From the NCBI RefSeq assembly GCF_026151205.1, contig NC_087080.1:8459720-8523719 (forward strand): a stretch of DNA of 64,000 nucleotides. Reading direction: 5' to 3'. Shown in pieces: positions 36,601-64,000 of the stretch (its first letter is position 1; each line of letters starts with the position of its first letter). The position numbers and the translations under genes were made by a program. This DNA is from Bolinopsis microptera. Its lineage: Eukaryota; Ctenophora; Tentaculata; Lobata; Bolinopsidae. The notes beneath the pieces were generated by a model that was not told the origin of the DNA, searched no databases, and saw only the letters and a program-made list of their open reading frames with translations.

Positions 36601-36624
36601 TGTACTTGAAGCGCTCGGATTCAT
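33618..36624 (-). CDS. LINE ORF2: AP-type endonuclease and reverse transcriptase, one frameshift
   Basis: Starts at the ATG at 36624, 11 bases after the ORF1 stop and in a different frame. The endonuclease half shows LTETWLKPY, VVVAYRPPN, LTGDYNLPSIDW and SDHHLV. The reverse transcriptase half shows DAIYLDFAKAFDKVDH, SGVPQGTVLGPLLFILFIND and the catalytic FADD. The protein nicks target DNA and copies the element RNA onto the cut end. One frame change lies near 35005-35015, between VIKVCER and the RGKMVSFIEKN segment (by family pattern one extra base). Apart from that the ~1000-residue chain is intact, so the copy is young. All family motifs are present. Confidence 0.92.
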
Positions 36625-36635
36625 GGACTGCACGT

Positions 36636-37757: not shown

Positions 37758-38210
37758 TTCAAGATTAGACGACTTTAATGCTTTGAGATTTTTAGCTCGC
37801 TATTTTGAATGATCAAACTTCGAGATGACTTGTTTTACTATTTTGTTCGTTCCCGCACGGAGAAGCAAGTTCCCGATCGATAATTCATTCGATAACTCTA
37901 TTTCAGATAATGTACAACCACTTGTGTATAGCCACACTCACAGTACAATGTATGCACAATGATAGCACAGTGCGATTATCAACAACTGATAAGAGAGCGA
38001 CTAAATCAACGCAAAAGCAATTATGTAATATTGATCTTCGATTTTAGAATCCTAGGGCCGGGATGGGATAATATACAAATTGAACGTTTTTTCTTTTAAA
38101 ATAAAAAAGACCTGAAACTCAGGAAAAATATGACTCCAGCCCCCTCCCATGAAACTTGCATTTATTTTTGCATCAACCTGAATTCACGAACTGTGCAACA
38201 TAATACTTAC

Positions 38211-39554
38211 TATACTATTTTATACTATTTTATACTATTTTATACTATTTTATACTATTTTATACTATTTTATACTATTTTATACTATTTTATACTATTT
38301 TATACTATTTTATACTATTTTATACTATTTTATACTATTTTATACTATTTTATACTATTTTATACTATTTTATACTATTTTATACTATTTTATACTATTT
38401 TATACTATTTTATACTATTTTATACTATTTTATACTATTTTATACTATTTTATACTATTTTATACTATTTTATACTATTTTATACTATTTTATACTATTT
38501 TATACTATTTTATACTATTTTATACTATTTTATACTATTTTATACTATTTTATACTATTTTATACTATTTTATACTATTTTATACTATTTTATACTATTT
38601 TATACTATTTTATACTATTTTATACTATTTTATACTATTTTATACTATTTTATACTATTTTATACTATTTTATACTATTTTATACTATTTTATACTATTT
38701 TATACTATTTTATACTATTTTATACTATTTTATACTATTTTATACTATTTTATACTATTTTATACTATTTTATACTATTTTATACTATTTTATACTATTT
38801 TATACTATTTTATACTATTTTATACTATTTTATACTATTTTATACTATTTTATACTATTTTATACTATTTTATACTATTTTATACTATTTTATACTATTT
38901 TATACTATTTTATACTATTTTATACTATTTTATACTATTTTATACTATTTTATACTATTTTATACTATTTTATACTATTTTATACTATTTTATACTATTT
39001 TATACTATTTTATACTATTTTATACTATTTTATACTATTTTATACTATTTTATACTATTTTATACTATTTTATACTATTTTATACTATTTTATACTATTT
39101 TATACTATTTTATACTATTTTATACTATTTTATACTATTTTATACTATTTTATACTATTTTATACTATTTTATACTATTTTATACTATTTTATACTATTT
39201 TATACTATTTTATACTATTTTATACTATTTTATACTATTTTACACTATTTTATACTATTTTATACTATTTTATACTATTTTATACTATTTTATACTATTT
39301 TATACTATTTTATACTATTTTATACTATTTTATACTATTTTATACTATTTTATACTATTTTATACTATTTTATACTATTTTATACTATTTTATACTATTT
39401 TATACTATTTTATACTATTTTATACTATTTTATACTATTTTATACTATTTTATACTATTTTATACTATTTTATACTATTTTATACTATTTTATACTATTT
39501 TATACTATTTTATACTATTTTATACTATTTTATACTATTTTATACTATTTTATA
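38211..39554. repeat. 134 exact copies of a 10-bp satellite (TATACTATTT)
   Basis: A 1.34-kb run of TATACTATTT with only one substitution seen (TACACTATTT at 39241). The open frame across it is a by-product of period 10 (three units equal ten codons). The flanks are unrelated AT-rich DNA, with the LINE 5' end ~150 bp to the left. Confidence 0.98.
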
Positions 39555-43714: not shown

Positions 43715-46700
43715 GTGAGTGAAAAAATACTAAAAGTAAAATATGTATACAACAATAAATATATGCTTTTGATTTAGTGATTGACACTTTAATGCTACCA
43801 ATTTATTCGAATAGCTTAAAATCTATCAGTCGTTTAATAGTTATGTTATCTTCATTCAGTGTGTGCTGACGATAGTGATTGTACTGAGGGAACATGCAAT
43901 AATAACAAAATATGTGAATGTGATGCAACTAGAGGTTTCAAGCTGGTAAGTGCATTTTCAAGGATACCTGGAACTCTGTAAAGTGAAAAGTCGTCAAAAA
44001 TGTCATTCTTATTTTCTTTGTGTATGGGTCATTTTGTAAGCAGACCACACTGTGGAGATGTGGCTGTTGTTAAACATTTTAGTTTACAAAATTCACACAA
44101 CCCTCAATTTACAATATAATTTTAGAAAGAAGATGATTTGAACGTCTGTGAGGAGGTTACTTGTCCTGATAATTACTGTGCCAATTGGGGCGAGTGTTCT
44201 GTTAAAGATCTTGAATTGGAGTGTGACTGTCCATTGGGAACAGAAGGAGACATATGTGATGAATTCACGTCGTAAGTTAAGACTAATAGTTGGTGGTGAT
44301 TTTTAAAATGATACTCATGTTACTGGATAATGTTGAATGTTGGAAATAACAAGACTTTGTACAATTTTATTTCATCTAACTTCCAATCACTGTTCGTAAA
44401 GTTATCAATATTTATTGTCTTATATTTAAGTTTTGTAAACAGGCAACAGCAACTTGTGATTTTTATTAAATTTCAGAGACCCCTGCGTCCCAGATCCCTG
44501 TAAAAACGGTGCAACATGTAGCCGTGTTATGACTAACCCTACGGACTTCACTAAACATGCGTGTGCCTGTACTGATGCTTTTAATGGGGACAGCTGCGAA
44601 TTTGCTAACAATTTCCATGTTGGGTTGGTAACCTTTCAGTTAGTTTTCTTTAAACTCAGTTGTTTTTGTGAGATTCACTTATGAATATCACACTGCTTCA
44701 AAAGTGACTTGAAATATAACTGTTTTTAAGCACAGTGACTCCAAAGTTTCCAAACCTTATATTTTCAGAGTTGGAGAGAAAGGTATCGAAATATCAGATA
44801 CGAGTGTGAATTCAGTCGAATTTGGCGTTGTTACTGCTAGTGGAGTAGGGGCGATGTATATTGCTTTATTAAAGGTTCGCTAATACAAATTATAATTCAT
44901 TCAGTTGATATTATGATCTTATAGAGATCGATCATTTTTAACAGGATCCCTATTATTTGACAGGGTCCCTGATTTCAAGGTCGGTTATCCACTGAAACTC
45001 ATTTTTGTTTATCCTATAAGAACGTACTGTGTACATCTATTTTATCATGCTGATGATATCGTTACCATACTGGCACGAAAACTTGGTACTGATTGTAAGG
45101 CTGTCTAATGGAGCTGCACATGATGACACTTTATTACAGGTGGTAGAAATGGATGGAAAAGAACATAAAGTCCTTCTGCTCAAGTCTGATGAAAGCACTA
45201 TTACGCTTAATGTAATTGGTGAAGAATCTGTAAAAATAGAGGGATTAACTTTAGACGGTAGCGTTGTAAGAGCCAAGATTCATGTTAATAGTGTTAGTAA
45301 ACTGCAGTTAGACGTAGCTGATAAGAGTGTTTCCACTGAACTTACTGTGAGTTTCATAAAATCATTGGCGATGGGTGGGACTGGATGTGCTTGGAATGAT
45401 GCCAGCTGCTCATTTGGAATATCTAGAATTTTCTACCACTCATTTGTAGGATACTTCGGAGTTATATCGATTGACGGAGATAAGAAGACTTTCGAAGATA
45501 TCTCAAGTATTAGTGCCAGTAAGTTACGCTATACTATTGTTAGATTTATCCCATCATTGATATATTTATCCCTTAAACTGGTACTCTTTTTAGAATAAAA
45601 TACTACGAGACCACTGACCAAAACTTTACATATTTCAGACGAAGCAGTAGCATCAGCGTTGGATTGTGCTACTTTCACTTGTGAAAATAGCGGAAAATGT
45701 GACTCTGCCTCTGGTCAAATAACCTGTTCATGTCCCGCGGGTATGGCTTAGTTTCGTTCATTAAGTATTGACTCATCTTGATCAGTCAGGAGTGAATTTC
45801 TATAATTTTTGTCGAAATAAGTAATTAGCGGAACTGCTTTCTAAGTGTTACATTCCGAATGTAGACAGTTGTTGGGAAATGAGAATTCCAAAACATTAAA
45901 GATGTGTTAAATTGTGCTGAAAAACCACCCTAATCACTAATCATAACGAGTACCGATTATCTCAGGATTCACAGGGTTTGACTGCGGCACCTATAATGGT
46001 GGTGTTTCGTTTAACGGATACACCAGTGACTTTAGTTTTGGTGCCACCACTGTGCCGATAGTCGAAGGAGATCAAACTGTGTCAATCGGTAAGATAGCTG
46101 AAATTAATAAACTTACCCAGAAGCATATTTCTTTAATTGGATACTGGTCGTTATTCATTCATATTTCAACGCTAGATTTAATCATTTGATGCAAATAATA
46201 GATGAATCTGTTACTAACTTTAGTAAAGATGTTTGCTATATTTCACGACAAAGTTCGCTGAAATTCTTCTCTAGAGGAATTGATTGATTAATTAATGAAC
46301 TTTTCTGTAACAGTCAGGTTATGTTCAATGTTCATTGTTCGTACTAAGATTTGCTAAAATTTGTTAACTTTCAGATTTTGATAAATCTGCCGAAGAGATT
46401 GGCGAGATGGCTAACATAAAAGTTGGTGACTGTAACATAGTTCTCAAAGCAGCTGGAGGTAAAATTTTTACTTCTTATTCTTCATCACTGACATATTCAG
46501 TTCAGTTTCAGTACATTATACATTTAATTCAGCTATCAGTGACACATTAAACTCAGCTATAAGTAACATTTTTAGTTCAGTAGCACATTTAACCAAACGA
46601 CCCGGGTTTTTCTGATCGGTTTCCTATGTTGTATTTCCGTTGCATACTTACTCCAAACAGTCGTACAATCAATCCACTTAAAGACTTAAATTGTGCAGGA

Positions 46701-49700
46701 ACTTCTTACAAAGTGGGGGATACTGAGGTAATAATTGAGGGGAGCACAATAACCATGACTCTTGATGGTACCGATGTGAAGATTGGTGCAGATGTTGTTA
46801 TGTCTTGCGCTCTGACAAAAACAGACTTGTCTGCTGAAGTTACGGTATGTGAAAATATGTTATTCCTAATTGTGCGTGCAGGTTTTCTTTACACGCGATA
46901 TGTATTTTGTAATCTCCCTTTAGACTTTGTTTTTTATTGGAAATTCAGCCGGTATGTAATTGTACAATGTATCGTTCCATTGACCAGATATTAGAAACTT
47001 TATAATGTTACTGATGAATACCGAGATAGAGCCACAAGAATAAAGTTCTGAAGCTAGACTATGATTTAAATTTCTTCAGGAATCACTGGGAGGTATTGAC
47101 CCAGTGGATGGTTCAGTAACACTCCAAGACTCAAGATACCAGGGCTGCATCAGAAAGATAACGGTTAACGGTATGGATATCATGCAAAAAACTGCCGACA
47201 ATGTGAACAATAACGCTGACACAGTGCAGTGTATTAGTAGCTTGAACCCTGAAGATCCCTGTGAGGGAGATGGTAATCCGTGTCTGAATAATGGAGAGTG
47301 TAGTATTGAGCCGGCTGACTACTCAGGTAAAAGAACAAATTAATAACAGAATTAAGTACTTTATTAAGTTTTAATTTGGTATTAATTCAACAATGCTTAC
47401 GTATTTTAACTGAGATGTTTGTGTTTAACTTTCTTTAACGCCTCTGGTGTTAGTGTTTAGATTTTACTTATGGCCGGAACTTTTATCAGATTTTATTATG
47501 TATCATTTTACTACTCACCCTGATCTAAATGCTAACACCTCTCGTTGATTTCAGCTAAGTGTGCTTGTACCGTGCCATACACCGTCGGCGAAACTTGTAC
47601 CCGACAAGCGTTTTGCACAAAAGGCCACACGTGCACCGAAAACGGTACGTGCACAGAATTGGATTCAATAACAGACTGCGAAGCAGCAAAAGAGACGAAA
47701 GAGGAGCTGACTTGTGGAGAAGGAGACAGATGGTACTACTATTGTAGCTGTAATGAAGGTTGGCAGGGCGACAATTGTGACGTGGAAATAGGTATGAATT
47801 CTAGATTTTTGTTTACGTCGATAATACAGACATTTATTTTCAATTTCAGCACTTAATAGTGCTATTACCTTACTCGGGATTATTACGACGGGTTTATTAA
47901 CGACCGGTTAAAATATGGTTCGGGAAAAATATGGCGAAATTGCTCAAAACCCACCACATTTTCCCGGTCGCCATTTTACCGGTGTCCAACCTTTCAATTT
48001 TAGATTCAAAAATTTGTCTCAGATGTAAATTTCCTTATTAGAGATAAGCAAGTTTAGAAATTTTTGCATTGCTAAAACTTGTGAAACAAGTCGAATTATC
48101 AATAATTGTTGAAAGTAGACAGAAATAATGACTCGTGGTTAATCAAACTAGACGGAAAATAATTGTCTTCGAAAGAATGCATCGTTCACATTGTTTAGAA
48201 TTATGAATAAATGACTGATGAAACTGATTCATGTTACTGACAGTTTTAATTAATCCAAGTTTTAATTTAACTGTTACTTTTACTTTGAGTCCTATTTCAT
48301 TATGTAGAGATAGTCAATACCTAAGAAATTAAAAATTGGCCTATTTAAATCAACTTTGACAATAAGGATATATGACAAGAATTGGGCAAAAAGGTGAATT
48401 TTTTGTAATTTTAGCCAAATGAAGTCGAAAAACCTACAACAAGTGTCCCAATAGTCTTTTTTAGTGAATATAAGACAACGATTAAAATATGAGCACCCAT
48501 ACCCCTTGGGAACCCTAAAAGCTGAGTCGGCGGGTTTATTAACGACCGGTGAAAATGTGGTTCGGGAAAAATATGGCGAAATTACCCTAAACCCGCCACT
48601 TTATCCCGGTCATAATAATCCCGAGTAAGGTAAATATTAATTTCAGCGGTAAATGCTGTGAACAAAGAACAGCTAACAGGCACGATTGCAAGAATATCGT
48701 GTACTGTTACGGGTTTGACAGAGGAGCTTGGTGTCACAAAATGGACCACTTCTGAGGATGTTGATGTGACGAGTCTAGAAGGCTACACCGTTGTTCCGGG
48801 ATCGTTGGAAGTAGATACTCAAACTACCACTCTGACTATTCCTGCTGATAAGAACAACAATGATGCAACTTACTGGTGTGTTATCACTTCCACTGAACAT
48901 GGTTTAGCAGATCAGAAAACTGAAGTCAGTTCCAAAGTTTTTAGTAAGTATTGTAACTTAAATTTGTATGTAATGTATATCCTGAAGGTAACGTTTTATT
49001 AATATTTAAACTTGTAAAAGTGTAGTCCTTGAGTGGTGTAAATGTGTGTTTGTACAAATAATTACATATGTATAATAAAGATAATATGTTATTAATTATA
49101 TATAATTACGTCTAGTACAGGGAGTACTTAGTGACCGGGACAATGTAGCATAAGGAGTGATTTAACACGCTCACACAGGCTGACTTTCAGCTCCACCGCC
49201 ACCGGCCACCTGCTTAGATAGGTGATGGTAGAAGTTATTTTCAGCTGCAGAAATAGCGGTGTCCCGCCTACTTAATGCTCGAACTAGCTCTTTCCTAGTT
49301 TCCACCGGAAGCGCCATATAGAGAATTTCCTTGGATAGCTGTCACGTGACAGTCACGAGATATCGATTGAGCGCGTTTACTGGTTGGATATGTAGCGCGT
49401 GATATTGATCTATTATGCAGACCCAATTACGCACCATATAAGGCGTAATTACTGGCTGCATCTAGCACGTGATATTTGTAAAGCCAATTACACATCCATA
49501 TAAGGCGTAATTAAGAGCTCGGAGTTGCAGTGGAGTTGCAGGGAGTTGTAATAGCGTGAAATTGGGTGGTAATTCGTTGATAAGGGGTACATACAAGTAA
49601 ATGTTTCGTGAACTATGTTGGTATAAAGCCAACTTTGGTTTTAGAACAGTGTGTGAGGGCGCGTACAGATGGAAGTGCACTGATTTGTTGTTCAGATGGT

Positions 49701-52700
49701 TAGAATAAAGATTTGTCCGAACCGGCTGAAATCGTTGTTACGTTGAAAACTGTTTCGATTACCTTGTTACCTAGCTAGTAACTTGGTATGAAGAGAGAGT
49801 GCAAACCAGACGAAAGTAAGACGAAGTCTCGGGGATCGGGGATGCAGCCTACAATGGGCATGAATATATAGAGGGCCCTAGGTTGCTCCCCAGATCGGCA
49901 GTCCAATAACACATTTTCTGAAAATTTCTAATTTCTAAACTTTTCATCAGTCCTACGCCACTGGGGAATGATAGAAAGATGCGATCGTGCTGACTGAATC
50001 ACTCTACGGAACATTTAAAGCAAAATTCTTTAAATGCTCATTTTTGTATAATTTCCGACTTGATATCTCAAAATAATGGGTTTCATTCGCTATCCTTCCG
50101 TAACAATTAACGACACTTTTCGACAACATGTCATGTCGCTTTTGATGCATAAAGCGAAGCATACAACCTTACCAAAACCGATCTTAGTTGACTTAAAATA
50201 GAAATTAGACGCAAGAGTTGAATTTTTTACAAAACATATTATCAGTATAATTTCATCACAAACCAGGAATTAAAGTTTTGTTGATAACTGATCAAATCAT
50301 AATACACGTAATCTATATAGTACCCATTAAAAATCTTTTAACTGTTTAATTATAATGCCTTGCACTCTTAGTAAATGTGTGGCTGTACAAATAATTATAT
50401 ACGTATAATAAAGATAATATCCTCTAACATGAACCAAACAATTCAGCTGTCACCTCAACACCCAAGTCTATAACGACCGCTGTAGATCAGACGTTGACTT
50501 GCAATATCGGAGGTCTAGACAATAGTGGATCCCCTGCTACTGTAACTTGGAAGGATAGTGCTGGACAAGAAGTTATAAGAACGGATACCACCAACTATGG
50601 TTGGAACCAAGGGACGGTAGATAGCAGCGGAAATCAAGCAGCAGAACTGACTATCAAAACTGCAAAGCTGGATGGTTTTAGTAGTCCATCATCATTCACC
50701 TACAAGTGCTCAGTCAAATCTTCCCAATACACAGATTCTCCTGCATCTGACTACGTAGATGTTGTAGCTAATATTCTAAAATTGGGTGAGTTTAGAATAT
50801 GTCATACTGTTAATCAAGGAAGTTCAAAGATTGTCGGACACTCAGTGGTAAGTTATTCTAACTAAATATTAATTTCAGAGGTAAATGCTGTGAACAAAGA
50901 ACAGCTAACAGGCACGATTGCAAGGATATCGTGTACTGTTACAGGTTTGACAGAGGAGCTTGGTGTCACAAAATGGACCACTTCTGAGGATGTTGATGTG
51001 ACGAGTCTAGAAGGCTACACCGTTGTTCCGGGATCGTTGGAAGTAGATACTCAAACTACTACTCTGACTATTCCTGCTGATAAGAACAACAATGATGCAA
51101 CTTACTGGTGTGTTATCACTTCCACTGAACATGGTTTAACAGATCAGAAAACTGAAGTCAGTTCCAAAGTCTTTAGTAAGTATTGTAACTTAAAGTTGTA
51201 TGTAATGTATATCCTGAAGGTAACGTTTTATTAATATTTAAACTTGTAAAAGTGTAGTCCTTGAGTGGTGTAAATGTGTGTTTGTACAAATAATTACATA
51301 CGTATAATAAAGATAATATCCTCTAACATGAACCAAACAATTCAGCTGTCACCTCAACACCCAAGTCTATAACGACCGCTGTAGATCAGACGTTGACTTG
51401 CAATATCGGAGGTCTAGACAATAGTGGATCCCCTGCTACTGTAACTTGGAAGGATAGTGCTGGACAAGAAGTTATAAGAACGGATACCACCAACTATGGT
51501 TGGAACCAAGGGACGGTAGATAGCAGCGGAAATCAGGCAGCAGAACTGACTATCAAAACTGCAAAGCTGGATGGTTTTAGTAGTCCATCATCATTCACCT
51601 ACAAGTGCTCAGTCAAATCTTCCCAATACACAGATTCTCCTGCATCTGACTACGTAGATGTTGTAGCTAATATTCTAAAATTGGGTGAGTTTAGAATATG
51701 TCATACTGTTAATCAAGGAAGTTCAAAGATTGTCGGACACTCAGTGGTAAGTTATTCTAACTAAATATTAATTTCAGAGGTAAATGCTGTGAACAAAGAA
51801 CAGCTAACAGGCACGATTGCAAGGATATCGTGTACTGTTACAGGTTTGACAGAGGAGCTTGGTGTCACAAAATGGACCACTTCTGAGGATGTTGATGTGA
51901 CGAGTCTAGAAGGCTACACCGTTGTTCCGGGATCGTTGGAAGTAGATACTCAAACTACTACTCTGACTATTCCTGCTGATAAGAACAACAATGATGCAAC
52001 TTACTGGTGTGTTATCACTTCCACTGAACATGGTTTAACAGATCAGAAAACTGAAGTCAGTTCCAAAGTCTTTAGTAAGTATTGTAACTTAAAGTTGTAT
52101 GTAATGTATATCCTGAAGGTAACGTTTCATTAATATTTTAACTTGTAAAAGTGTAGTGTTTAACTGGTGTAAATGTGTGTTTGTACGAATAATTATATAC
52201 GTATAATAAAGATAATATCCTCTAACATGAACCAAACAATTCAGCTGTCACCTCAACACCCAAGTCTATAACGACCGCTGTAGATCAGACGTTGACTTGC
52301 AATATCGGAGGTCTAGACAATAGTGGATCCCCTGCTACTGTAACTTGGAAGGATAGTGCTGGACAAGACGTTATAAGAACGGAAACCACCAACTATGGTT
52401 GGAACCAAGGGACGGTAGATAGCAGCGGAAATCAAGCAGCAGAACTGACTATCAAAACTGCAAAGCTGGATGGTTTTAGTAGTCCATCATCAGTCACCTA
52501 CAAGCAGGGACAAAAGGATTTCGCGGCATGTACGAAATCGCGAAATTTCCCATTCTCCGCGACAAATTTTATGTATAGTTTAATGTATAGCCTGTTAAAT
52601 TTCGCGGTATCGCGAAATTTGGCCAAAATAATCGCGAAATCCTTTTGTCCCTGCCTACAAGTGCTCAGCCAAATCTTCCCAATACACAGATTCTCCTGCA

Positions 52701-55700
52701 TCTGACTACGCAGATGTTGTAGCTAACATTCTAAAATTGGGTGAGTATAGAATATGTCGTACTGTTAATCAAGGAAGTTCAAAGATTGTCGGACACTCAG
52801 TGGTAAGTTATTCTAACTAAATATTAATTTCAGAGGTAAATGCTGTGAACAAAGAACAGCTAACAGGCACGATTGCAAGGATATCGTGTACTGTTACAGG
52901 TTTGACAGAGGAGCTTGGTGTCACAAAATGGACCACTTCTGAGGATGTTGATGTGACGAGTCTAGAAGGCTACACCGTTGTTCCGGGATGGTTGGAAGTA
53001 GATACTCAAACTACTACTCTGACTATTCCTGCTGATAAGAACAACAATGATGCAACTTACTGGTGTGTTATCACTTCCACTGAACATGGTTTAACAGATC
53101 AGAAAACTGAAGTCAGTTCCAAAGTCTTTAGTAAGTATTGTAACTTAAAGTTGTATGTAATGTATATCCTGAAGGTAACGTTTTATTAATATTTAAACTT
53201 GTAAAAGTGTAGTCCTTGAGTGGTGTAAATGTGTGTTTGTACAAATAATTACATACGTATAATAAAGATAATATCCTCTAACATGAACCAAACAATTCAG
53301 CTGTCACCTCAACACCCAAGTCTATAACGACCGCTGTAGATCAGACGTTGACTTGCAATATCGGAGGTCTAGACAATAGTGGATCCCCTGCTACTGTAAC
53401 TTGGAAGGATAGTGCTGGACAAGAAGTTGTAAGACCGGATACCACCAACTATGGTTGGAACCAAGGGACGGTAGATAGCAGCGGAAATCAGGCAGCAGAA
53501 CTGACTATCAAAACTGCAAAGCTGGATGGTTTTAGTAGTCCATCATCATTCACCTACAAGTGCTCAGTCAAATCTTCCCAATACACAGATTCTCCTGCAT
53601 CTGACTACGTAGATGTTGTAGCTAATATTCTAAAATTGGGTGAGTTTAGAATATGTCATACTGTTAATCAAGGAAGTTCAAAGATTGTCGGACACTCAGT
53701 GGTAAGTTATTCTAACTAAATATTAATTTCAGAGGTAAATGCTGTGAACAAAGAACAGCTAACAGGCACGATTGCAAGGATATCGTGTACTGTTACAGGT
53801 TTGACAGAGGAGCTTGGTGTCACAAAATGGACCACTTCTGAGGATGTTGATGTGACGAGTCTAGAAGGCTACACCGTTGTTCCGGGATCGTTGGAAGTAG
53901 ATACTCAAACTACTACTCTGACTATTCCTGCTGATAAGAACAACAATGATGCAACTTACTGGTGTGTTATCACTTCCACTGAACATGGTTTAACAGATCA
54001 GAAAACTGAAGTCAGTTCCAAAGTCTTTAGTAAGTATTGTAACTTAAAGTTGTATGTAATGTATATCCTGAAGGTAACGTTTTATTAATATTTAAACTTG
54101 TAAAAGTGTAGTCCTTGAGTGGTGTAAATGTGTGTTTGTACAAATAATTACATACGTATAATAAAGATAATATCCTCTAACATGAACCAAACAATTCAGC
54201 TGTCACCTCAACACCCAAGTCTATAACGACCGCTGTAGATCAGACGTTGACTTGCAATATCGGAGGTCTAGACAATAGTGGATCCCCTGCTACTGTAACT
54301 TGGAAGGATAGTGCTGGACAAGACGTTATAAGAACGGAAACCACCAACTATGGTTGGAACCAAGGGACGGTAGATAGCAGCGGAAATCAAGCAGCAGAAC
54401 TGACTATCAAAACTGCAAAGCTGGATGGTTTTAGTAGTCCATCATCAGTCACCTACAAGCAGGGACAAAAGGATTTCGCGGCATGTACGAAATCGCGAAA
54501 TTTCCCATTCTCCGCGACAAATTTTATGTATAGTTTAATGTATAGCCTGTTAAATTTCGCGGTATCGCGAAATTTGGCCAAAATAATCGCGAAATCCTTT
54601 TGTCCCTGCCTACAAGTGCTCAGCCAAATCTTCCCAATACACAGATTCTCCTGCATCTGACTACGCAGATGTTGTAGCTAACATTCTAAAATTGGGTGAG
54701 TATAGAATATGTCGTACTGTTAATCAAGGAAGTTCAAAGATTGTCGGACACTCAGTGGTAAGTTATTCTAACTAAATATTAATTTCAGAGGTAAATGCTG
54801 TGAACAAAGAACAGCTAACAGGCACGATTGCAAGGATATCGTGTACTGTTACGGGTTTGACAGAGGAGCTTGGTGTCACAAAATGGACCACTTCTGAGGA
54901 TGTTGATGTGACGAGTCTAGAAGGCTACACCGTTGTTCCGGGATGGTTGGAAGTAGATACTCAAACTACTACTCTGACTATTCCTGCTGATAAGAACAAC
55001 AATGATGCAACTTACTGGTGTGTTATCACTTCCACTGAACATGGTTTAACAGATCAGAAAACTGAAGTCAGTTCCAAAGTCTTTAGTAAGTATTGTAACT
55101 TAAAGTTGTATGTAATGTATATCCTGAAGGTAACGTTTTATTAATATTTAAACTTGTAAAAGTGTAGTCCTTGAGTGGTGTAAATGTGTGTTTGTACAAA
55201 TAATTACATACGTATAATAAAGATAATATCCTCTAACATGAACCAAACAATTCAGCTGTCACCTCAACACCCAAGTCTATAACGACCGCTGTAGATCAGA
55301 CGTTGACTTGCAATATCGGAGGTCTAGACAATAGTGGATCCCCTGCTACTGTAACTTGGAAGGATAGTGCTGGACAAGAAGTTATAAGAACGGATACCAC
55401 CAACTATGGTTGGAACCAAGGGACGGTAGATAGCAGCGGAAATCAGGCAGCAGAACTGACTATCAAAACTGCAAAGCTGGATGGTTTTAGTAGTCCATCA
55501 TCATTCACCTACAAGTGCTCAGTCAAATCTTCCCAATACACAGATTCTCCTGCATCTGACTACGTAGATGTTGTAGCTAATATTCTAAAATTGGGTGAGT
55601 TTAGAATATGTCATACTGTTAATCAAGGAAGTTCAAAGATTGTCGGACACTCAGTGGTAAGTTATTCTAACTAAATATTAATTTCAGAGGTAAATGCTGT

Positions 55701-58700
55701 GAACAAAGAACAGCTAACAGGCACGATTGCAAGGATATCGTGTACTGTTACAGGTTTGACAGAGGAGCTTGGTGTCACAAAATGGACCACTTCTGAGGAT
55801 GTTGATGTGACGAGTCTAGAAGGCTACACCGTTGTTCCGGGATCGTTGGAAGTAGATACTCAAACTACTACTCTGACTATTCCTGCTGATAAGAACAACA
55901 ATGATGCAACTTACTGGTGTGTTATCACTTCCACTGAACATGGTTTAACAGATCAGAAAACTGAAGTCAGTTCCAAAGTCTTTAGTAAGTATTGTAACTT
56001 AAAGTTGTATGTAATGTATATCCTGAAGGTAACGTTTCATTAATATTTTAACTTGTAAAAGTGTAGTGTTTAACTGGTGTAAATGTGTGTTTGTACGAAT
56101 AATTATATACGTATAATAAAGATAATATCCTCTAACATGAACCAAACAATTCAGCTGTCACCTCAACACCCAAGTCTATAACGACCGCTGTAGATCAGAC
56201 GTTGACTTGCAATATCGGAGGTCTAGACAATAGTGGATCCCCTGCTACTGTAACTTGGAAGGATAGTGCTGGACAAGACGTTATAAGAACGGAAACCACC
56301 AACTATGGTTGGAACCAAGGGACGGTAGATAGCAGCGGAAATCAAGCAGCAGAACTGACTATCAAAACTGCAAAGCTGGATGGTTTTAGTAGTCCATCAT
56401 CAGTCACCTACAAGCAGGGACAAAAGGATTTCGCGGCATGTACGAAATCGCGACATTTCCCATTCTCCGCGACAAATTTTATGTATAGTTTAATGTATAG
56501 CCTGTTAAATTTCGCGGTATCGCGAAATTTGGCCAAAATAATCGCGAAATCCTTTTGTCCCTGCCTACAAGTGCTCAGCCAAATCTTCCCAATACACAGA
56601 TTCTCCTGCATCTGACTACGCAGATGTTGTAGCTAACATTCTAAAATTGGGTGAGTATAGAATATGTCGTACTGTTAATCAAGGAAGTTCAAAGATTGTC
56701 GGACACTCAGTGGTAAGTTATTCTAACTAAATATTAATTTCAGAGGTAAATGCTGTGAACAAAGAACAGCTAACAGGCACGATTGCAAGGATATCGTGTA
56801 CTGTTACAGGTTTGACAGAGGAGCTTGGTGTCACAAAATGGACCACTTCTGAGGATGTTGATGTGACGAGTCTAGAAGGCTACACCGTTGTTCCGGGATG
56901 GTTGGAAGTAGATACTCAAACTACTACTCTGACTATTCCTGCTGATAAGAACAACAATGATGCAACTTACTGGTGTGTTATCACTTCCACTGAACATGGT
57001 TTAACAGATCAGAAAACTGAAGTCAGTTCCAAAGTCTTTAGTAAGTATTGTAACTTAAAGTTGTATGTAATGTATATCCTGAAGGTAACGTTTTATTAAT
57101 ATTTAAACTTGTAAAAGTGTAGTCCTTGAGTGGTGTAAATGTGTGTTTGTACAAATAATTACATACGTATAATAAAGATAATATCCTCTAACATGAACCA
57201 AACAATTCAGCTGTCACCTCAACACCCAAGTCTATAACGACCGCTGTAGATCAGACGTTGACTTGCAATATCGGAGGTCTAGACAATAGTGGATCCCCTG
57301 CTACTGTAACTTGGAAGGATAGTGCTGGACAAGAAGTTGTAAGACCGGATACCACCAACTATGGTTGGAACCAAGGGACGGTAGATAGCAGCGGAAATCA
57401 GGCAGCAGAACTGACTATCAAAACTGCAAAGCTGGATGGTTTTAGTAGTCCATCATCATTCACCTACAAGTGCTCAGTCAAATCTTCCCAATACACAGAT
57501 TCTCCTGCATCTGACTACGTAGATGTTGTAGCTAATATTCTAAAATTGGGTGAGTTTAGAATATGTCATACTGTTAATCAAGGAAGTTCAAAGATTGTCG
57601 GACACTCAGTGGTAAGTTATTCTAACTAAATATTAATTTCAGAGGTAAATGCTGTGAACAAAGAACAGCTAACAGGCACGATTGCAAGGATATCGTGTAC
57701 TGTTACAGGTTTGACAGAGGAGCTTGGTGTCACAAAATGGACCACTTCTGAGGATGTTGATGTGACGAGTCTAGAAGGCTACACCGTTGTTCCGGGATCG
57801 TTGGAAGTAGATACTCAAACTACTACTCTGACTATTCCTGCTGATAAGAACAACAATGATGCAACTTACTGGTGTGTTATCACTTCCACTGAACATGGTT
57901 TAACAGATCAGAAAACTGAAGTCAGTTCCAAAGTCTTTAGTAAGTATTGTAACTTAAAGTTGTATGTAATGTATATCCTGAAGGTAACGTTTCATTAATA
58001 TTTTAACTTGTAAAAGTGTAGTGTTTAACTGGTGTAAATGTGTGTTTGTACGAATAATTATATACGTATAATAAAGATAATATCCTCTAACATGAACCAA
58101 ACAATTCAGCTGTCACCTCAACACCCAAGTCTATAACGACCGCTGTAGATCAGACGTTGACTTGCAATATCGGAGGTCTAGACAATAGTGGATCCCCTGC
58201 TACTGTAACTTGGAAGGATAGTGCTGGACAAGACGTTATAAGAACGGAAACCACCAACTATGGTTGGAACCAAGGGACGGTAGATAGCAGCGGAAATCAA
58301 GCAGCAGAACTGACTATCAAAACTGCAAAGCTGGATGGTTTTAGTAGTCCATCATCAGTCACCTACAAGTGCTCAGCCAAATCTTCCCAATACACAGATT
58401 CTCCTGCATCTGACTACGCAGATGTTGTAGCTAACATTCTAAAATTGGGTGAGTATAGAATATGTCGTACTGTTAATCAAGGAAGTTCAAAGATTGTCGG
58501 ACACTCAGTGGTAAGTTATTCTAACTAAATATTAATTTCAGAGGTAAATGCTGTGAACAAAGAACAGCTAACAGGCACGATTGCAAGGATATCGTGTACT
58601 GTTACGGGTTTGACAGAGGAGCTTGGTGTCACAAAATGGACCACTTCTGAGGATGTTGATGTGACGAGTCTAGAAGGCTACACCGTTGTTCCGGGATGGT

Positions 58701-61700
58701 TGGAAGTAGATACTCAAACTACTACTCTGACTATTCCTGCTGATAAGAACAACAATGATGCAACTTACTGGTGTGTTATCACTTCCACTGAACATGGTTT
58801 AACAGATCAGAAAACTGAAGTCAGTTCCAAAGTCTTTAGTAAGTATTGTAACTTAAAGTTGTATGTAATGTATATCCTGAAGGTAACGTTTTATTAATAT
58901 TTAAACTTGTAAAAGTGTAGTCCTTGAGTGGTGTAAATGTGTGTTTGTACAAATAATTACATACGTATAATAAAGATAATATCCTCTAACATGAACCAAA
59001 CAATTCAGCTGTCACCTCAACACCCAAGTCTATAACGACCGCTGTAGATCAGACGTTGACTTGCAATATCGGAGGTCTAGACAATAGTGGATCCCCTGCT
59101 ACTGTAACTTGGAAGGATAGTGCTGGACAAGAAGTTGTAAGACCGGATACCACCAACTATGGTTGGAACCAAGGGACGGTAGATAGCAGCGGAAATCAGG
59201 CAGCAGAACTGACTATCAAAACTGCAAAGCTGGATGGTTTTAGTAGTCCATCATCATTCACCTACAAGTGCTCGGTCAAATCTTCCCAATACACAGATTC
59301 TCCTGCATCTGACTACGTAGATGTTGTAGCTAACATTCTAAAATTGGGTAAGTTTAGAATATGTCATACTGTTAATCAAGGAAGTTCAAAGATTGTCGGA
59401 CACACAGTGGTAAGCTATTCTAACTACCTTACTCGGGATTATTACGACGGGTTTATTAACGACCGGTTAAAATATGGTTCGGGAAAAATATGGCGAAATT
59501 GCTCAAAACCCACCACATTTTCCCGGTCGCCATTTTACCGGTGTCCAACCTTTCAATTTTAGATTCAAAAATTTTGTCTCAGATGTAAATTTCCTTATTA
59601 GAGATAAGCAAGTTTAGAAATTTTTGCATTGCTAAAACTTGTGAAACAAGTCGAATTATCAATAATTGTTGAAAGTAGACAGAAATAATGACTCGTGGTT
59701 AATCAAACTAGACGGAAAATAATTGTCTTCGAAAGAATGCATCGTTCACATTGTTTAGAATTATGAATAAATGACTGATGAAACTGATTCATGTTACTGA
59801 CAGTTTTAATTAATCCAAGTTTTAATTTAACTGTTACTTTTACTTTGAGTCCTATTTCATTATGTAGAGATAGTCAATACCTAAGAAATTAAAAATTGGC
59901 CTATTTAAATCAACTTTGACAATAAGGATATATGACAAGAATTGGGCAAAAAGGTGAATTTTTTGTAATTTTAGCCAAATGAAGTCGAAAAACCTACAAC
60001 AAGTGTCCCAATAGTCTTTTTTAGTGAATATAAGACAACGATTAAAATATGAGCACCCATACCCCTTGGGAACCCTAAAAGCTGAGTCGGCGGGTTTATT
60101 AACGACCGGTGAAAATGTGGTTCGGGAAAAATATGGCGAAATTACCCTAAACCCGCCACTTTATCCCGGTCATAATAATTCCGAGTAAGGTAACGTTTAA
60201 AATTTAAAATTTTTATTTTTATGGCTACAGGTTATTTTGAAATCATATTGGTAAGAAAATTCGTAACTTCAGGGGTAGTCGCAAAAGACAGCGAAGTTCT
60301 CGAGGACACAGCGGCAACAATATCTTGTGTAGTGAACGGCCTGACAAAGCAATTGGACGCGGTAACATGGGAGAAACCTAGTACGGGTGGTGTTATAACT
60401 ACCGGTACTGACGACTATCAGATTGAAGTTGGAACTTACGATTCTGGTTCAAACAGTCAAACTACAATTCTGACAATTTCTGGACCTGCAAACGGGGCTG
60501 ATGCTGTTTACACATGTGTCTTTCAATCTGACGAGCATGGAAAGACATTAGGGTCTGAAGAGAAAACTGATGTTAACTCGAACGTGTTCAGTGAGTATCT
60601 TACTAATATTAACTGTATACGGATGTTCAGAAGTTTAATTTTGTTACTTGTCAATGCACTAACCGTGATACTGCACCAATGGTTTTTATAGCAGCCGGTT
60701 TAGCTAATGATATTAAATGATCTTGAAACCATTTATCTCAAATTATTTCAGCTATTGCTCCTGTTGTCATGTCGGCAACTACTGCTGTGGATCAGACATT
60801 GGTCTGCAATATCGGAGACGTAACTACAGCTGTTACTGTATCATGGACGAGTGGAGATAACACCCCAATAACAGACGGTCAGGGAGGATACACTATCACC
60901 CAAGGGACAGTTAGCACCAATATCCAGGAATCTAGTCTGACCATCACAGCTGCTACGCTACAACAACTGGATACAAGTTCAGTGATATGGAAGTGTGCAG
61001 CTAAGTCCTCACACTACCCAGACTCAGAGCAGTCTGAATACAAAGATCTCACTCTCACTTTCCTTACTTTAGGTTTGTTCTTTAGATCGGTTTGTATGGA
61101 AATTGAAAAGAAACCTAGATAAACAGTGCATAACGTTTAAAATTTAAAATCTTTATTTTTATGGCTACAGGTTATTTTGAAATCATATTGGTAAGAAAAT
61201 TCGTAACTTCAGGGGTAGTCGCAAAAGACAGCGAAGTTCTCGAGGACACAGCGGCAACAATATCTTGTGTAGTGAACGGCCTGACAAAGCAATTGGACGC
61301 GGTAACATGGAAGAAACCTAGTACGGGTGGTGTTATAACTACCGGTACTGACGACTATCAGATTGACGTTGGAACTTACGATTCTGGTTCAAACAGTCAA
61401 ACTACAATTCTGACAATTCCTGGACCTGTAAACGGGGCTGATGCTGTTTACACATGTGTCATTCAATCTGACGAGCATGGAAAGACATCAGGGTCTGAAG
61501 AGAAAACTGATGTTAAATCGAACGTGTTCAGTGAGTATCTTACTAATATTAACTGTATACGGATGTTCAGAAGTTTAATTTTGTTACTTGTCAATGCACT
61601 AACCGTGATACTGCACCAATGGTTTTTATAGCAGCCGGTTTAGCTAATGATATTAAATGATCTTGAAACCATTTATCTCAAATTATTTCAGCTATTGCTC

Positions 61701-64000
61701 CTGTTGTCATGTCGGCAACCACCGCTGTGGATCAGACATTGGTCTGCAATATCGGAGACGACACTACAGCTGTTACTGTTTCATGGACGAGTGGAGATAA
61801 CACCCCGATAACAGACGGTCAGGGAGGATACACTATCACCCAAGGGACAGTTAGCACCAATATCCAGGAATCTAGTCTGACCATCACAGCTGCTACGCTA
61901 CAACAACTGGATACAAGTTCAGTGATATGGAAGTGTGCAGCTAAGTCCTCACACTACCCAGACTCAGAGCAGTCTGAATACAAAGATCTCACTCTCACTT
62001 TCCTTACTTTAGGTTTGTTCTTTAGATCGGTTTGTATGGAAATTGAAAAGAAACCTAGATAAACAGTGCATAACGTTTAAAATTTAAAATCTTTATTTTT
62101 ATGGCTACAGGTTATTTTGAAATCATATTGGTAAGAAAATTCGTAACTTCAGGGGTAGTCGCAAAAGACAGCGAAGTTCTCAAAGACACAGGGACGACAA
62201 TATCTTGTGTAGTGACAGGCCTGACAAAGGGATTGGACGCAGTAGGATGGAAAAATCCGGATGGTTTTATAACGCACGGTTCTGACGATATCGATGACTA
62301 TCAGATTGAAGAGGGGTCTTACATTTTTGGTTCAAAAAGTCAAACTACAGTTCTGACAATTCCTGCAACCAAAAACACGGGTGATGCTGTTTACACATGT
62401 GTCATTCAATCTGCCGAGCATGGAAAGATATCAGGGTCTGAAGAGGAAAACACTGTTAACTCGAACGTGTTCAGTGAGTATCTTACTGATTTTAACTTGT
62501 TACGGATGTTTAGAAGTTTAATCTTGTTACTTGTGAAGGCACTAACCATGCTATATCAATGGTTTTTCTAGTAGCTGGTTTAGCTAATGATATTAAAATG
62601 ATCTTTAAATTATTTTATCTAGTACATTTTATTTTACAAAAGTCCAAAGGTCCTTCGCATTTGGTCGTTTCACTATTTCTGAACGAAATGTTTGTCCACA
62701 TTTTATTTTAAATAGTTCTCGTGAAATCTTGCTCCTATGTAAGATAGCAGATCCCAATACCATTATTACTAATATTAATGAGACAGTACAACTTTTCTTG
62801 TTAACATTGTACAATGTTTGTAATTTACGGACCGAAAATCGCCATTTCAAAAGAGAATAAAGCCTCTATTGCCAGAAATTGATCCTTAATCCTCGCCTAC
62901 AAATCTTCTCTAACAATAATTATCTAACCATCTTGTTAAGATGACCAATATACTCATAATATTCATCATGATATTCCTCATCATAATAATTGAAACTACA
63001 TCAGTTGGACATTGGGTCAGCTAATGAAATAAACTTTAATTGATCTTGAAACCTTGTATCTCCAATTATTTCAGCTATCACTCCTGTTGACATGTCGGCA
63101 ACCGACGCTGTGGACCAGACATTGGTCTGCAATATCGGAGACGTAACTACAGCTGTTACTGTATCATGGACGGATCAAGATAACACCCCAATAACAACCG
63201 GTAATGGATACACTATCACACCGGGGGCAGTTGACGGTGTCACCAATATCCAGGAATCTAGTCTGACCATAGACACTACTACGTTAAAAGAACTGGATAC
63301 AAGTTCAGGCTCCGTGATATGGAAGTGTGCAGCTAAGTCCTCACAATACCCAGACTCAGAGCAGTCTGAATACAAAGATCTCACTGTCACTTTCCTTACT
63401 TTAGGTTTGTTCTTTAGATCTGTATGTATGGAGATTAAAAAGAAACCTATATAAACAGTAGGGGTCGCCCTCTGTTATGAGGTGCTTTAATCAATTAGCC
63501 CCACGTCAGATCGTGTAGTCGATAATTTTTCCTACACGGGGATACCAAGATTTTAAAAATTGACCAATGTCAATAACGTTATGCACTGTTTATTAAACAG
63601 TGCATAACGTTTAAAATTTAAAATCTTGATTTTTACGACTACATTTTATTTTAAAATCATTTGGTAAGAAAATTCGTAATTTCAGCGGTAGAAGCAAAGG
63701 ACAGCGAAGTTCTCAAAGACACAGTGGCGACAATATCTTGTGTAGTGACAGGCCTGACAAAGCAATTGGACGCAGTAGCATGGAAAAATTCGGATGGTTC
63801 TATAACGCACGGTTCTGACGCTACCGTCGACTATCAGATTGAAGAGGGGACTTACATTCTCGGTTCAAAAAGTCAAACTACAGTTCTGACAATTCCTGCA
63901 ACCGAAAACAAGCATGATGCTGTTTACACATGTGTCATTCAATCTGACGAGCATGGAAAGACATCAGGGTCCGAAGAGGATGAAACTGTTAACTCGGACG
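40706..64000 (+). CDS. Large modular secreted/cell-surface protein: sushi, EGF, LamG and >=27 Ig-like domains
   Basis: One gene model with continuous reading phase. A signal-peptide exon (MLRNLLFSVLVLQALHDFR) leads into 16 exons of sushi, EGF-like and LamG modules to 47791, then two arrays of Ig-like exons that leave the window on the right. Nearly all modules sit on symmetrical phase 1-1 exons, so cassettes can be duplicated or skipped without frame loss. No transmembrane segment or stop is reached in the window, so it may be secreted or anchored further on. The mix of domains suits adhesion or recognition at the cell surface or in extracellular matrix; I recognise no specific orthologue. 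Parts are described in separate entries. Confidence 0.85.
43860..44623 (+). CDS. Exons 7-9: EGF-like domains
   Basis: Exons 43860-43945, 44126-44271 and 44477-44623. The reading phase runs 1-0, 0-2, 2-2. They encode Cys-rich EGF-like units: CTEGTCNNNKICEC, then CPDNYCANWGECSVKDLE and CDCPLGTEGDICD, then CVPDPCKNGATCS to CACTDAFNGDSCEF. The last exon must use the weak donor GG|GTTGGT at 44623 to stay in phase with the next exon; a better-looking GTAACC 4 bases later would break the frame. Confidence 0.78.
44769..47326 (+). CDS. Exons 10-16: two LamG-like domains separated by EGF
   Basis: Exons 44769-44874, 45140-45518, 45639-45740, 45966-46088, 46375-46458, 46684-46844 and 47080-47326. Exons 10-11 form a first laminin-G-like beta-sandwich (VEFGVVTASGVGAMYIALLK; ...GYFGVISIDGDKKTFED). 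Exon 12 and the start of exon 13 hold an EGF (CENSGKCDSASGQITCSCPA). Exons 13-16 form the second LamG, ending in the typical YQGCIRKITVNGMDI, followed by the start of an EGF (CLNNGECSIEPADY). LamG domains bind glycans or partner receptors. The acceptor of exon 11 (45139) and of exon 15 (46683) were chosen by phase. Confidence 0.8.
47555..47791 (+). CDS. Exon 17: EGF-like pair before the Ig arrays
   Basis: A phase 1-1 exon of 237 bases with 12 or more Cys: CACTVPYTVGETC, CTKGHTCTENGTC, then CSCNEGWQGDNCDVE. It closes the EGF begun in exon 16 and adds another. Its donor faces two possible acceptors: 47849, which runs into the transposon and a stop at ~47908, and 48646, which enters the Ig array. 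Confidence 0.8.
47868..48630 (+). mobile_element. Non-autonomous TA-target transposon, copy E1 (763 bp)
   Basis: Terminal inverted repeats begin CCTTACTCGGGATTATTA and end with the complement; TA lies on both sides (47866-47867 and 48631-48632). Near each end, a ~50-bp module with GGTTCGGGAAAAATATGGCG occurs in the same direction. The inside is AT-rich with no coding frame. The TA target is like the Tc1/mariner group, but the ends are not diagnostic. It is almost identical to copy E2 at 59427-60190. Confidence 0.88.
48647..50785 (+). CDS. Ig unit 1: exons A1 and B1
   Basis: A1 48647-48943 and B1 50447-50785, both phase 1-1, one Ig-like domain each. A has ISCTVTGLTEELGVTKW, then TLTIPADKNNNDATYWCV, the B-strand Cys, core Trp and F-strand Cys of an Ig fold. 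B has LTCNIGG, VTWKDSAGQEVIRTD, ELTIKT and FTYKCSVKSS. A1 is distinguished by LADQ where others have LTDQ. Its A-B intron is 1503 bp instead of 170 bp. Confidence 0.85.
49038..50420. repeat. 1333-bp extra intron segment between 50-bp direct repeats
   Basis: The intron of unit 1 has a 50-bp direct repeat at 49038-49087 and 50371-50420. The segment from one to the other is 1333 bp, exactly the excess over the 170-bp introns of all other units. Inside lie a tandem of ~100 bp around ATATAAGGCGTAATTA (49400-49515) and a stretch with GGTATAAAGCC (~49620) and AATAAAG (~49705) resembling LTR promoter and poly(A) signals, too weak to call an LTR. Confidence 0.85.
50879..51684 (+). CDS. Ig unit 2: exons A2 and B2
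   Basis: A2 50879-51175 (PGSLEV form) and B2 51346-51684 (EVIRTD, FTYKCSV form). Compact 170-bp intron. Spaced 899 bp from the next unit; the protein matches unit 1 except at LTDQ. Confidence 0.87.
51778..52740 (+). CDS. Ig unit 3: exon A3 and MITE-broken exon B3
   Basis: A3 51778-52074 is intact (PGSLEV). B3 52245-52740 is the DVIRTE variant and carries the hAT MITE, which shifts the frame and gives a stop at ~52703-52705 within the exon. Skipping B3 would keep the frame, since it is a phase 1-1 exon. Confidence 0.87.
52505..52653. mobile_element. hAT-type MITE, copy 1 (149 bp) inside an Ig exon
   Basis: Perfect terminal inverted repeats of 21 bp beginning CAGGGACAAAAGGATTTCG, and an 8-bp target duplication CCTACAAG at 52497-52504 and 52654-52661. 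Both the CAGGG end and the 8-bp duplication are typical of the hAT superfamily. It adds 157 bp, so the reading frame shifts. Confidence 0.95.
52834..53639 (+). CDS. Ig unit 4: exons A4 and B4
   Basis: A4 52834-53130 (PGWLEV form) and B4 53301-53639 (EVVRPD, FTYKCSV form). Together with unit 3 this makes the 1955-bp higher-order repeat. Confidence 0.87.
53733..54695 (+). CDS. Ig unit 5: exon A5 and MITE-broken exon B5
   Basis: A5 53733-54029 (PGSLEV). B5 54200-54695 (DVIRTE) contains the MITE at the same position as B3, with the same frame break. Confidence 0.87.
54460..54608. mobile_element. hAT-type MITE, copy 2
   Basis: Same insertion site and same CCTACAAG duplication as at 52505, exactly 1955 bp downstream. 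It was therefore copied with the unit, not inserted anew. Confidence 0.95.
54789..55594 (+). CDS. Ig unit 6: exons A6 and B6
   Basis: A6 54789-55085 (PGWLEV) and B6 55256-55594. B6 is the EVIRTD form of units 1-2, unlike B4, B8 and B10 (EVVRPD), which marks a conversion or exchange event within the array. Confidence 0.87.
55688..56650 (+). CDS. Ig unit 7: exon A7 and MITE-broken exon B7
   Basis: A7 55688-55984 (PGSLEV). B7 56155-56650 (DVIRTE) with the third MITE copy and the same frame break. Confidence 0.87.
56415..56563. mobile_element. hAT-type MITE, copy 3
   Basis: Same site as copies 1 and 2, with one internal substitution seen (CGCGACATTT in place of CGCGAAATTT near 56451). Confidence 0.95.
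56744..57549 (+). CDS. Ig unit 8: exons A8 and B8
   Basis: A8 56744-57040 (PGWLEV) and B8 57211-57549 (EVVRPD, FTYKCSV). Confidence 0.87.
57643..58448 (+). CDS. Ig unit 9: exon A9 and intact exon B9
   Basis: A9 57643-57939 (PGSLEV). B9 58110-58448 has the diagnostic residues of the MITE-bearing exons (DVIRTE, VTYKCSAKSS, DYADVV) but no MITE and a single clean CCTACAAG. It shows what those exons encoded before insertion. Confidence 0.88.
58542..59347 (+). CDS. Ig unit 10: exons A10 and B10
   Basis: A10 58542-58838 (PGWLEV) and B10 59009-59347 (EVVRPD). Its donor is GGTAAGT where earlier B exons have GGTGAGT. The following intron is cut by transposon copy E2 at a TA. Confidence 0.87.
59427..60190 (+). 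mobile_element. Non-autonomous TA-target transposon, copy E2 (764 bp)
   Basis: Same element and orientation as E1. I see only two differences: one extra T in the run near 59570, and a C-to-T change in the right terminal repeat. TA lies on both sides. Left flank is the array-1 intron (TTCTAACTA); right flank is an array-2-type intron (TAACGTTTAAAATTTAAAAT). Confidence 0.9.
60273..62012 (+). CDS. Ig array 2, units 1-2: exons A'1, B'1, A'2, B'2
   Basis: A'1 60273-60590, B'1 60752-61072, A'2 61213-61530, B'2 61692-62012, all phase 1-1, period 940 bp. A' shows ATISCVVNGLTKQLDAVTW and AVYTCV; B' shows TLVCNIGDVTTAVTVSW and SSVIWKCAAKSSHYPDSE. They are diverged homologues of A and B (shared TTAVDQTL-CNIG in B'). 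The two units are near-identical, so this pair is a recent duplication on an older base. Confidence 0.86.
62153..63404 (+). CDS. Ig array 2, unit 3: exons A'3 and B'3
   Basis: A'3 62153-62473 and B'3 63075-63404. Both differ from units 1-2 by several substitutions and small in-frame length changes. The intron is 601 bp rather than 161 bp. The extra ~440 bp again lies between partial copies of a local sequence (AGCTAATGA...GATCTT), as in unit 1 of array 1. Confidence 0.85.
63455..63611. repeat. Insertion ending in a 37-bp palindrome
   Basis: Compared with the other units, the intron has ~135 extra bases. At its right end AACGTTATGCACTGTTTA (63575-63592) faces its complement (63594-63611), an inverted copy of the normal CAGTGCATAACGTT intron sequence. 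This is an inverted duplication or a foldback insertion. Confidence 0.8.
63686..64000 (+). CDS. Ig array 2, exon A'4 (partial)
   Basis: Begins after TTTCAG at 63685 in phase 1 and encodes AVEAKDSEVLKDTVATISC, then VAWKNSD and AVYTCVIQSDEHGKTSGSEED. The window ends inside the exon, so the gene goes on. Confidence 0.85.

Follow-up and report, generated by a model that had tools for sequence, protein, structure and literature searches.

How did a large block of immunoglobulin-like (Ig) exons, with a copy of the same transposon at each of its joints, come to lie within a single intron of a cell-surface gene? We addressed this question in a 64,000-nucleotide stretch of Bolinopsis microptera DNA (contig NC_087080.1; referred to here as the window) and in the sequence that follows it. 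We consider it probable (roughly 0.72) that a chimeric Ig block of 35.9 kb was assembled by means of this transposon, element E, and was inserted into one intronic TA of the resident gene. The parts of the locus are as follows (window numbering).

46011..47867, + strand: X, the resident gene part up to the edge of E1 (95.2% identity to paralogue L071)
47868..48630, + strand: E1, a 763-bp TA-target MITE copy of the 764-type, joining X to array 1 (U)
48631..59426, + strand: cassette 1, equal to array 1, with paired Ig-like exons (ten A and ten B)
59427..60190, + strand: E2, 764 bp, apparent sister of E1, joining array 1 (U) to array 2 (Y)
60191..64000, + strand: start of cassette 2 (Y...Z), with array 2 and further Ig exons in the order of C7:10.788-10.806 Mb
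82927, + strand: end of cassette 2, past the window, followed by E3
82928-83725, + strand: E3, the third copy, beyond the window, joining Z to X'
from 83726, + strand: X', beyond the window, adjoining E3 on the right
87966-88195, + strand: predicted transmembrane exon of X', beyond the window

The linear order is X-E1-[array 1]-E2-[array 2...Z]-E3-X', with X' found 35 kb downstream of X, to the right of E3. The two-cassette block (C9:8507587-8543444) occupies a single TA, and its three joints (X-E1-U, U-E2-Y and Z-E3-X') each carry E, all in parallel orientation.

Element E is ~0.8 kb in size, and E1 and E2 run from CCTTACTCGGG to CCGAGTAAGG with TA flanks on both sides; exact TAs likewise border E3 at either end. 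Terminal inverted repeats are present in E1, its initial 25 bases pairing at 92% with the final 26, and 35 of 38 copies matched both end patterns including the flanking TA when up to three substitutions per pattern were allowed. Genome-wide, one end pattern was found at 467 places in the forward and 433 in the reverse direction, against 0 for a control. These ~900 ends in 264.65 Mb correspond to ~0.06 copies expected per 36 kb, assuming that each copy has kept two ends. The only open reading frame of at least 90 residues listed inside E1 encodes 102 residues on the minus strand. With both a TA duplication and inverted repeats present, E is by its sequence a TA-target (Tc1/mariner-type) MITE, putatively non-coding.

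The first-pass annotation had counted two differences between the parallel copies E1 and E2 in ~763 bp, and alignment bears this out: one substitution and one single-base indel separate them, a divergence of 0.26%. Four substitutions are common to E1 and E2 and absent from 35 other aligned copies, and a 42-base stretch with two of these private substitutions occurs exactly twice in the genome with one mismatch allowed. Because they share four private substitutions, E1 and E2 look like sister copies from one parent rather than unrelated insertions. The outer copies E1 and E3 differ in subtype (764 versus 798). Two separate insertions, which had been named as the outcome that would overturn the earlier proposal, were considered as the main reading and rejected, since the private substitutions are held in common and native halves are re-sorted at each E.

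This re-sorting is seen by comparison with paralogues, which yield four native sites, X|X', U|U, Y'|Y and Z|Z'; the native halves on either side of each E copy do not match. In L071 (C9:13.89 Mb), the one partial paralogue from which the empty site X|X' is known, X is joined directly to X' via one TA with 95.2% identity on each side; the homology begins at 46011 and ends exactly at the edge of E1. At the other end of the block, two non-self matches, L076 and L077, extend as far as E3; in each of them homology to Z breaks exactly there and the sequence continues into another exon, Z'. The other 16 match rows are partial and end short of this edge. The remaining array-2 introns carry AAACAGTGCA before Y. 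For the Y'|Y site, AAACAGTGCATAACG is present in each of the three later array-2 introns located in the window, the third of which diverges further upstream, and in eight introns of the C7:10.79 array; a copy of the site on C4 has TG instead of TA. A possible similarity between the tail of X (AATAGTGCTATTAACG) and the array-2 intron (AACAGTGCATAACG) raised X|Y as a candidate native junction, which L071 and X' contradict. E was found in none of 15 other loci (13 of the Ig families and two of the X paralogue; 66,472 bases, some overlapping).

The order of cassette 2 parallels that of the C7:10.788-10.806 Mb locus, and on this similarity array 2 is part of a second, putatively imported cassette with a paralogue on C7 at ~10.8 Mb. 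These comparisons recast the original picture of the locus. That the left flank of E1 and the right flank of E2 form the junction of the locus with array 2 holds within the window, but the junction is not native: X leads to X' in L071, and Y is preceded elsewhere by AAACAGTGCA. For the same reasons an ancestral site in which a single E joined exon 17 to array 2 finds no counterpart, as the paralogue joins X to X' and, elsewhere, Y' stands ahead of array 2. The idea that a non-coding transposon added a block of Ig exons in one step survives in so far as the exons are joined through E; two cassettes appear to have been imported, and one crossover would not be enough because the empty site is X|X', X' lies to the right of E3, and array 2 falls in the second cassette.

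Cassette 1 consists of units of ~899 bp, and the same intron TA is cut at both ends of the array. When the right flank of E1 (TAAATATTAATTTCAG) and the left flank of E2 (TTCTAACTA) are brought together over one shared TA, they yield the intron that is found intact at nine of nine other array-1 inter-unit positions in the window, in agreement with the first-pass annotation. Nine further matches to U|U lie on C7 (≤4 edits). The A exon gave a weak Ig_3 match below the Pfam cut-off, and the B exon gave no Pfam match. Array-1 units differ by 2.2-3.3% from the single aligned C7 unit while E1 and E2 differ by only 0.26%; therefore, either the immediate source is something other than the C7 arrays, or E1 and E2 were homogenised later. 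No haplotype copy on contigs beyond C13 was seen among the 85 array-1 matches listed (at least 85 in total).

All block segments agree in strand and splice phase. The three introns bearing E are of phase 1, and the frames are open across all three joints when spliced at the predicted sites, which were chosen by eye. The last exon of X, with a phase 1 donor at 47792, gave a weak EGF-like match that falls short of the curated Pfam cut-off; Sushi and EGF-like matches also fell below curated cut-offs, and Pfam gave no match for Laminin-G-like content of the upstream exons. No transmembrane exon was found in the 8,215 bases examined of the L071 copy, and the sole other genome-wide match to that of X' at an E-value of ≤0.01 lies on C2 (49%). 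The predicted product is potentially an in-frame chimeric receptor, with a stalk from X, two Ig arrays, further Ig exons and the transmembrane exon of X'.

In the reading that we prefer, E copies would have settled in Ig-gene introns and then acted as joints. Cassette 2 would derive from a gene resembling the C7:10.8 Mb locus, comprising its ectodomain but no transmembrane exon, and would have reached X|X' along one of two routes, recombination with a resident E or composite transposition via the outer ends of two different E copies; both routes are possible for the outer block ends. Cassette 1 would most likely have entered when an E within array 1, perhaps carried by an excised circle, recombined homologously with an E already beside cassette 2. 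Recombination between E copies fits cassette 1; integration of a circle is possible for array 1, as is an intermediate X-E-Y from an earlier step.

Within this reading, the chance that homologous recombination did all of the work, between an E resident in X|X' and others in Ig-gene introns, partly via excised circles such as the first-pass annotation put forward for array 1, falls slightly short of even. The array-1 ends rejoin into an intact intron, E1 and E2 are nearly identical across 763 bp, and each joint lies inside a parallel-orientation E with flanks from different native sites, the configuration looked for under NAHR. This route requires, however, a prior E in four separate TA sites, and neither an E-Z' nor a Y'-E scar was matched in this assembly (short patterns, ≤3 mismatches). 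Nor was there a second U-E junction, the 14 matches being E2 (one mismatch) and 13 places with three mismatches. Compared at six majority sites, of which one is divided 4 of 7, and in the middle, E1, E2 and E3 show no visible chimaera of the 764 and 798 types; a crossover outside E1 positions 184-613 would be invisible in this comparison. Composite (alternative) transposition, in which E1 supplies the left and E3 the right terminus of one large element and no resident E is needed, is a credible route to which we give somewhat less than an even chance. A target duplication frames its outer ends, at a site whose empty form is known: the outer flanks compared with L071 give a perfect single TA, and the outer copies are of different subtypes; a transposase would nevertheless have to synapse ends over a large span, and E2 at the U|Y joint demands a second event. 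In maize, alternative transposition of Ac/Ds produced Composite Insertions that measured ~14, 19 and 24 kb, and a further one was inferred to reach 36 kb or more; they contain transposon ends and target duplications, and their internal junctions can arise by recombination (PMC4270019). As in those insertions, host DNA here is flanked by transposon ends in a target duplication, with internal joints that recombination can repair. The maize cases are observed alleles with a known transposase (PMC4270019), unlike the putatively non-coding, TA-targeting E, which is known from sequence alone. The present block further differs from them in that it holds Ig exon cassettes of two gene lineages with E at the internal joint.

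Two explanations would dispense with assembly through E. Misassembly, by which unrelated places were joined at repeat copies, gains from the presence of a repeat at all three joints and from an assembly made with wtdbg, gap-closed and haplotig-purged (PMC10232365), yet appears improbable: E measures merely ~0.8 kb, the window and the next 40 kb contain zero N, E1/E2 can be told from E3 by their subtypes and private changes, and strand and splice phase are common to all segments. Independent insertion of E into introns that were already chimeric is very improbable, even though E is repetitive and targets TA. The homology breakpoints coincide with the E edge on every side tested, and E1 and E2 share private substitutions. 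The three E-bearing introns contain 12, 18 and 360 TAs, and three chance insertions exactly at existing chimeric breakpoints have a probability of ~1 in 78,000 under uniform choice among TAs.

Ectopic recombination between dispersed repeats is a known route of exon shuffling, in which intronic repeats join phase-matched exon blocks. The locus resembles this general class in using intronic repeats as joints and combining phase-matched blocks; it differs in the apparent transfer of a whole tandem exon array, in three repeat joints that can still be read, and in paralogues that contain the flanks' native partners. Arthropod Dscam also carries tandem Ig-exon arrays in one gene, and similar Ig exons are arrayed within one gene here too, although close relatives of these arrays occur on other chromosomes. 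Among the matches listed in a literature search limited to open-licence papers, none dealt with these arrays.

Exon shuffling by transposons is usually deduced from joints that are old and eroded. The joints described here look young, with the element still present at each and with empty or native forms of the flanks elsewhere in the same genome. Since E is retained and these native forms exist, sister species and further individuals offer a direct test of the order in which the steps took place. A broader role for E, as a recurrent portable joint whose intronic MITE copies would repeatedly load, swap and stack Ig exon arrays from different chromosomes in open-ended building of new recognition receptors, is a doubtful extension. 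If our best reading is true, the block is a clear example from nature of exon shuffling built by a transposon, and its occurrence in a ctenophore would bear on the diversification of immunoglobulin receptors in early-branching animals.

The block of Ig-like exons lies between two parts of a resident cell-surface gene, X and X', and is joined to them, and divided internally, by three same-orientation copies of E, a non-coding MITE with TA as target (numbering is that of the window, C9:8459720-8523719, and continues beyond its right edge).

46011-47867: X, resident gene left of E1; 95.2% identity to its paralogue L071
47868-48630: E1, MITE copy at the left edge of array 1; same orientation as E2
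59427-60190: E2, MITE copy at the right edge of array 1; same orientation as E1
82928-83725 (continued numbering): E3, third E copy, left of X'
87966-88195: X' exon, predicted transmembrane and tail; one other genomic relative, on C2 (49%, open frame)

The homology between X and L071 (C9, 13.89 Mb) ends exactly at the edge of E1. In L071, X continues into X' via a single TA, and at the block locus X' starts at C9:8543445, directly right of E3. The order is therefore X-E1-[array 1]-E2-[array 2 ... Z]-E3-X', and the block measures 35,858 bases. The matches listed in the similarity search for E (best 40 of 795) did not include E3. L071, the sole X paralogue found, is a partial copy whose homology stops ~1.8 kb into X'; the transmembrane exon was not found in 8.2 kb of its locus.

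Alignment of E1 and E2 bore out the two differences reported by the first-pass annotation for these like-oriented copies, namely one substitution and one single-base indel. Its claim that the right flank of E1 and the left flank of E2 restore an array-1 intron also held: with one TA in common they rebuild U, the inter-unit intron, in the form intact at all nine other inter-unit positions. E1 and E2 have four substitutions in common (E1 positions 298, 370, 388 and 592) that occur in none of 35 other aligned copies (those having both ends, out of 38 retrieved), position 298 being comparable in just 8 of them; beyond these, each carries one private change. A 42-base stretch including the middle two was found genome-wide at exactly two places, E1 and E2, with one mismatch allowed, which supports the absence of a closer relative; such a relative would be expected to rank first among the best 40 of 795 candidates scored. 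In a tree of 37 copies (E1, E2, E3 and 34 others) the two cluster with a support of 0.972. Judged by these comparisons, E1 and E2 are sister copies.

E has terminal inverted repeats of ~25 bases (92%) with TA on either side. Its end pattern, allowing up to two mismatches, gave 467 forward and 433 reverse matches in 264,652,675 bases (232 contigs; C1-C13 each 15 to 26 Mb) and 0 with a reversed control, which suggests ~450 family members if two ends are kept per copy. Same-strand E-type ends at C1:17733769 and C1:17739951, 6.2 kb apart with an identical short left flank, are perhaps another E-linked duplication. Majority-site typing (six sites and the middle) places E1 and E2 in the 764 type and E3 in the 798 type, with 5 or 6 changes from the subtype majority in E1 and E2 and 2 in E3. 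Because X and L071 differ by ~5%, against these few changes, the E-free X|X' form in L071 is most simply read as the older state.

Z, the right end of cassette 2 (to 82927), matches C7:10.805 Mb at 95.7% and C9:9.757 Mb at 92%, and at the same TA both paralogues pass from Z into exon Z', which by eye looks like a membrane-spanning exon. This native Z|Z' order comes from two matches, the other 16 non-self Z matches being partial and ending short of the E3 edge; a search for Z' in 104 kb around the block locus gave no match. Y, the left end of cassette 2 (from 60191), is elsewhere preceded by Y' (AAACAGTGCA): in full in two array-2 introns of the window, a third diverging further upstream, and in 8 introns of the array at C7:10.79 Mb; the Y'|Y site on C4 has TG instead of TA. 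From Y to Z the block is collinear with C7:10.788-10.806 Mb, identity ranging from about 85 to 97%. Block stretches at ~65179-66392, 66477-67153 and 72043-79060 have no counterpart there, nor has ~0.7 kb of C7 in the block; the stretch at 72043-79060 is a 7-kb insert inside cassette 2, beyond the window, with 299-base direct repeats (99.7%). The joints are thus X to U at E1, U to Y at E2 and Z to X' at E3, and given the paralogue partners of X, Y, Z and U, none of the three E copies lies between matching native halves.

Among the matches listed, those nearest to array 1 lie at 1.0 and 1.17 Mb of C7. Array-1 units differ from one aligned C7 unit by 2.2-3.3%, far above the E1-E2 difference, so that either C7 is not the direct source or E1 and E2 were homogenised. 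Array 1 contains a higher-order repeat (50699-58369; period 1,955 bp), aligning at 99.5% over 5.7 kb, which points to recent amplification within the cassette. In three of its ten units (W2, W4 and W6) the B exon is interrupted by an extra 157 bp (52505-52661, 54460-54616 and 56415-56571), read by eye as a probable 149-bp MITE plus an 8-bp target duplication, CCTACAAG; W8 does not have it, yet is the same as W2 and W6 across aligned columns. The first unit has an extra ~1.3 kb (49088-50370) with ends overlapping by 50 bases.

From these arrangements we infer that E copies in introns served as joints. Recombination between E copies, possibly through a circle, is the favoured route for array 1, since both array ends close to an intact intron. 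For the outer insertion, recombination with a resident E at X|X' would fit, and so would a transposase acting on the left end of E1 together with the right end of E3, comparable to maize Composite Insertions (PMC4270019); the 764/798 typing does not separate the two because crossovers outside E1 positions 184-613 would be traceless. Insertion of E into introns already chimeric is unlikely: with E removed, the introns contain 12, 18 and 360 TA, so that uniform choice would strike the breakpoint all three times with a chance near 1 in 78,000, and the origin of the chimeras would be left without explanation. A misassembly joined at E keeps a low probability; against it, the window and the following 40 kb contain no N bases. 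The two scars expected from E-mediated joining (E-Z' and Y'-E) were not found in the assembly, nor was a second U-E junction genome-wide. The first-pass proposal of one crossover between an array circle and a resident E between exon 17 and array 2, or of an unequal exchange between two E copies, was right in kind, in that an Ig-exon block was joined via E; it was wrong in its details, the one X paralogue found having X' after X, and X' lying here to the right of the third copy, E3.

With splice sites set by eye, donors and acceptors of all three E introns are in phase 1, and the predicted translation is open at E1 (...NCDVEI-AVNAVNKEQ...), at E2 (...VVANILKL-GVVAKDSE...) and at E3 (...NSSIAT-GNSILLIGW...), where it enters the X' exon predicted to encode a transmembrane segment and tail. 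Pfam gave strong Ig support for cassette 2 exons (Ig_3, E 5.7e-20); in both arrays the A exons had a weak Ig match under the curated threshold, and B exons alone had no match at 0.01. Elsewhere the window holds a very long minisatellite (1-7082; unit ~15 bases), an almost perfect 1.3-kb satellite array of a 10-base unit (38211-39554) and, on the minus strand at 33618-37799, long frames resembling by eye a LINE-type reverse transcriptase and endonuclease.

E was found in 0 of 15 other loci searched (13 Ig-family and 2 X-paralogue, partly overlapping), and these loci thus do not support a general role for E. On the sequence evidence, the process belongs to a known class, of which the present locus is a new and unusually complete variant.
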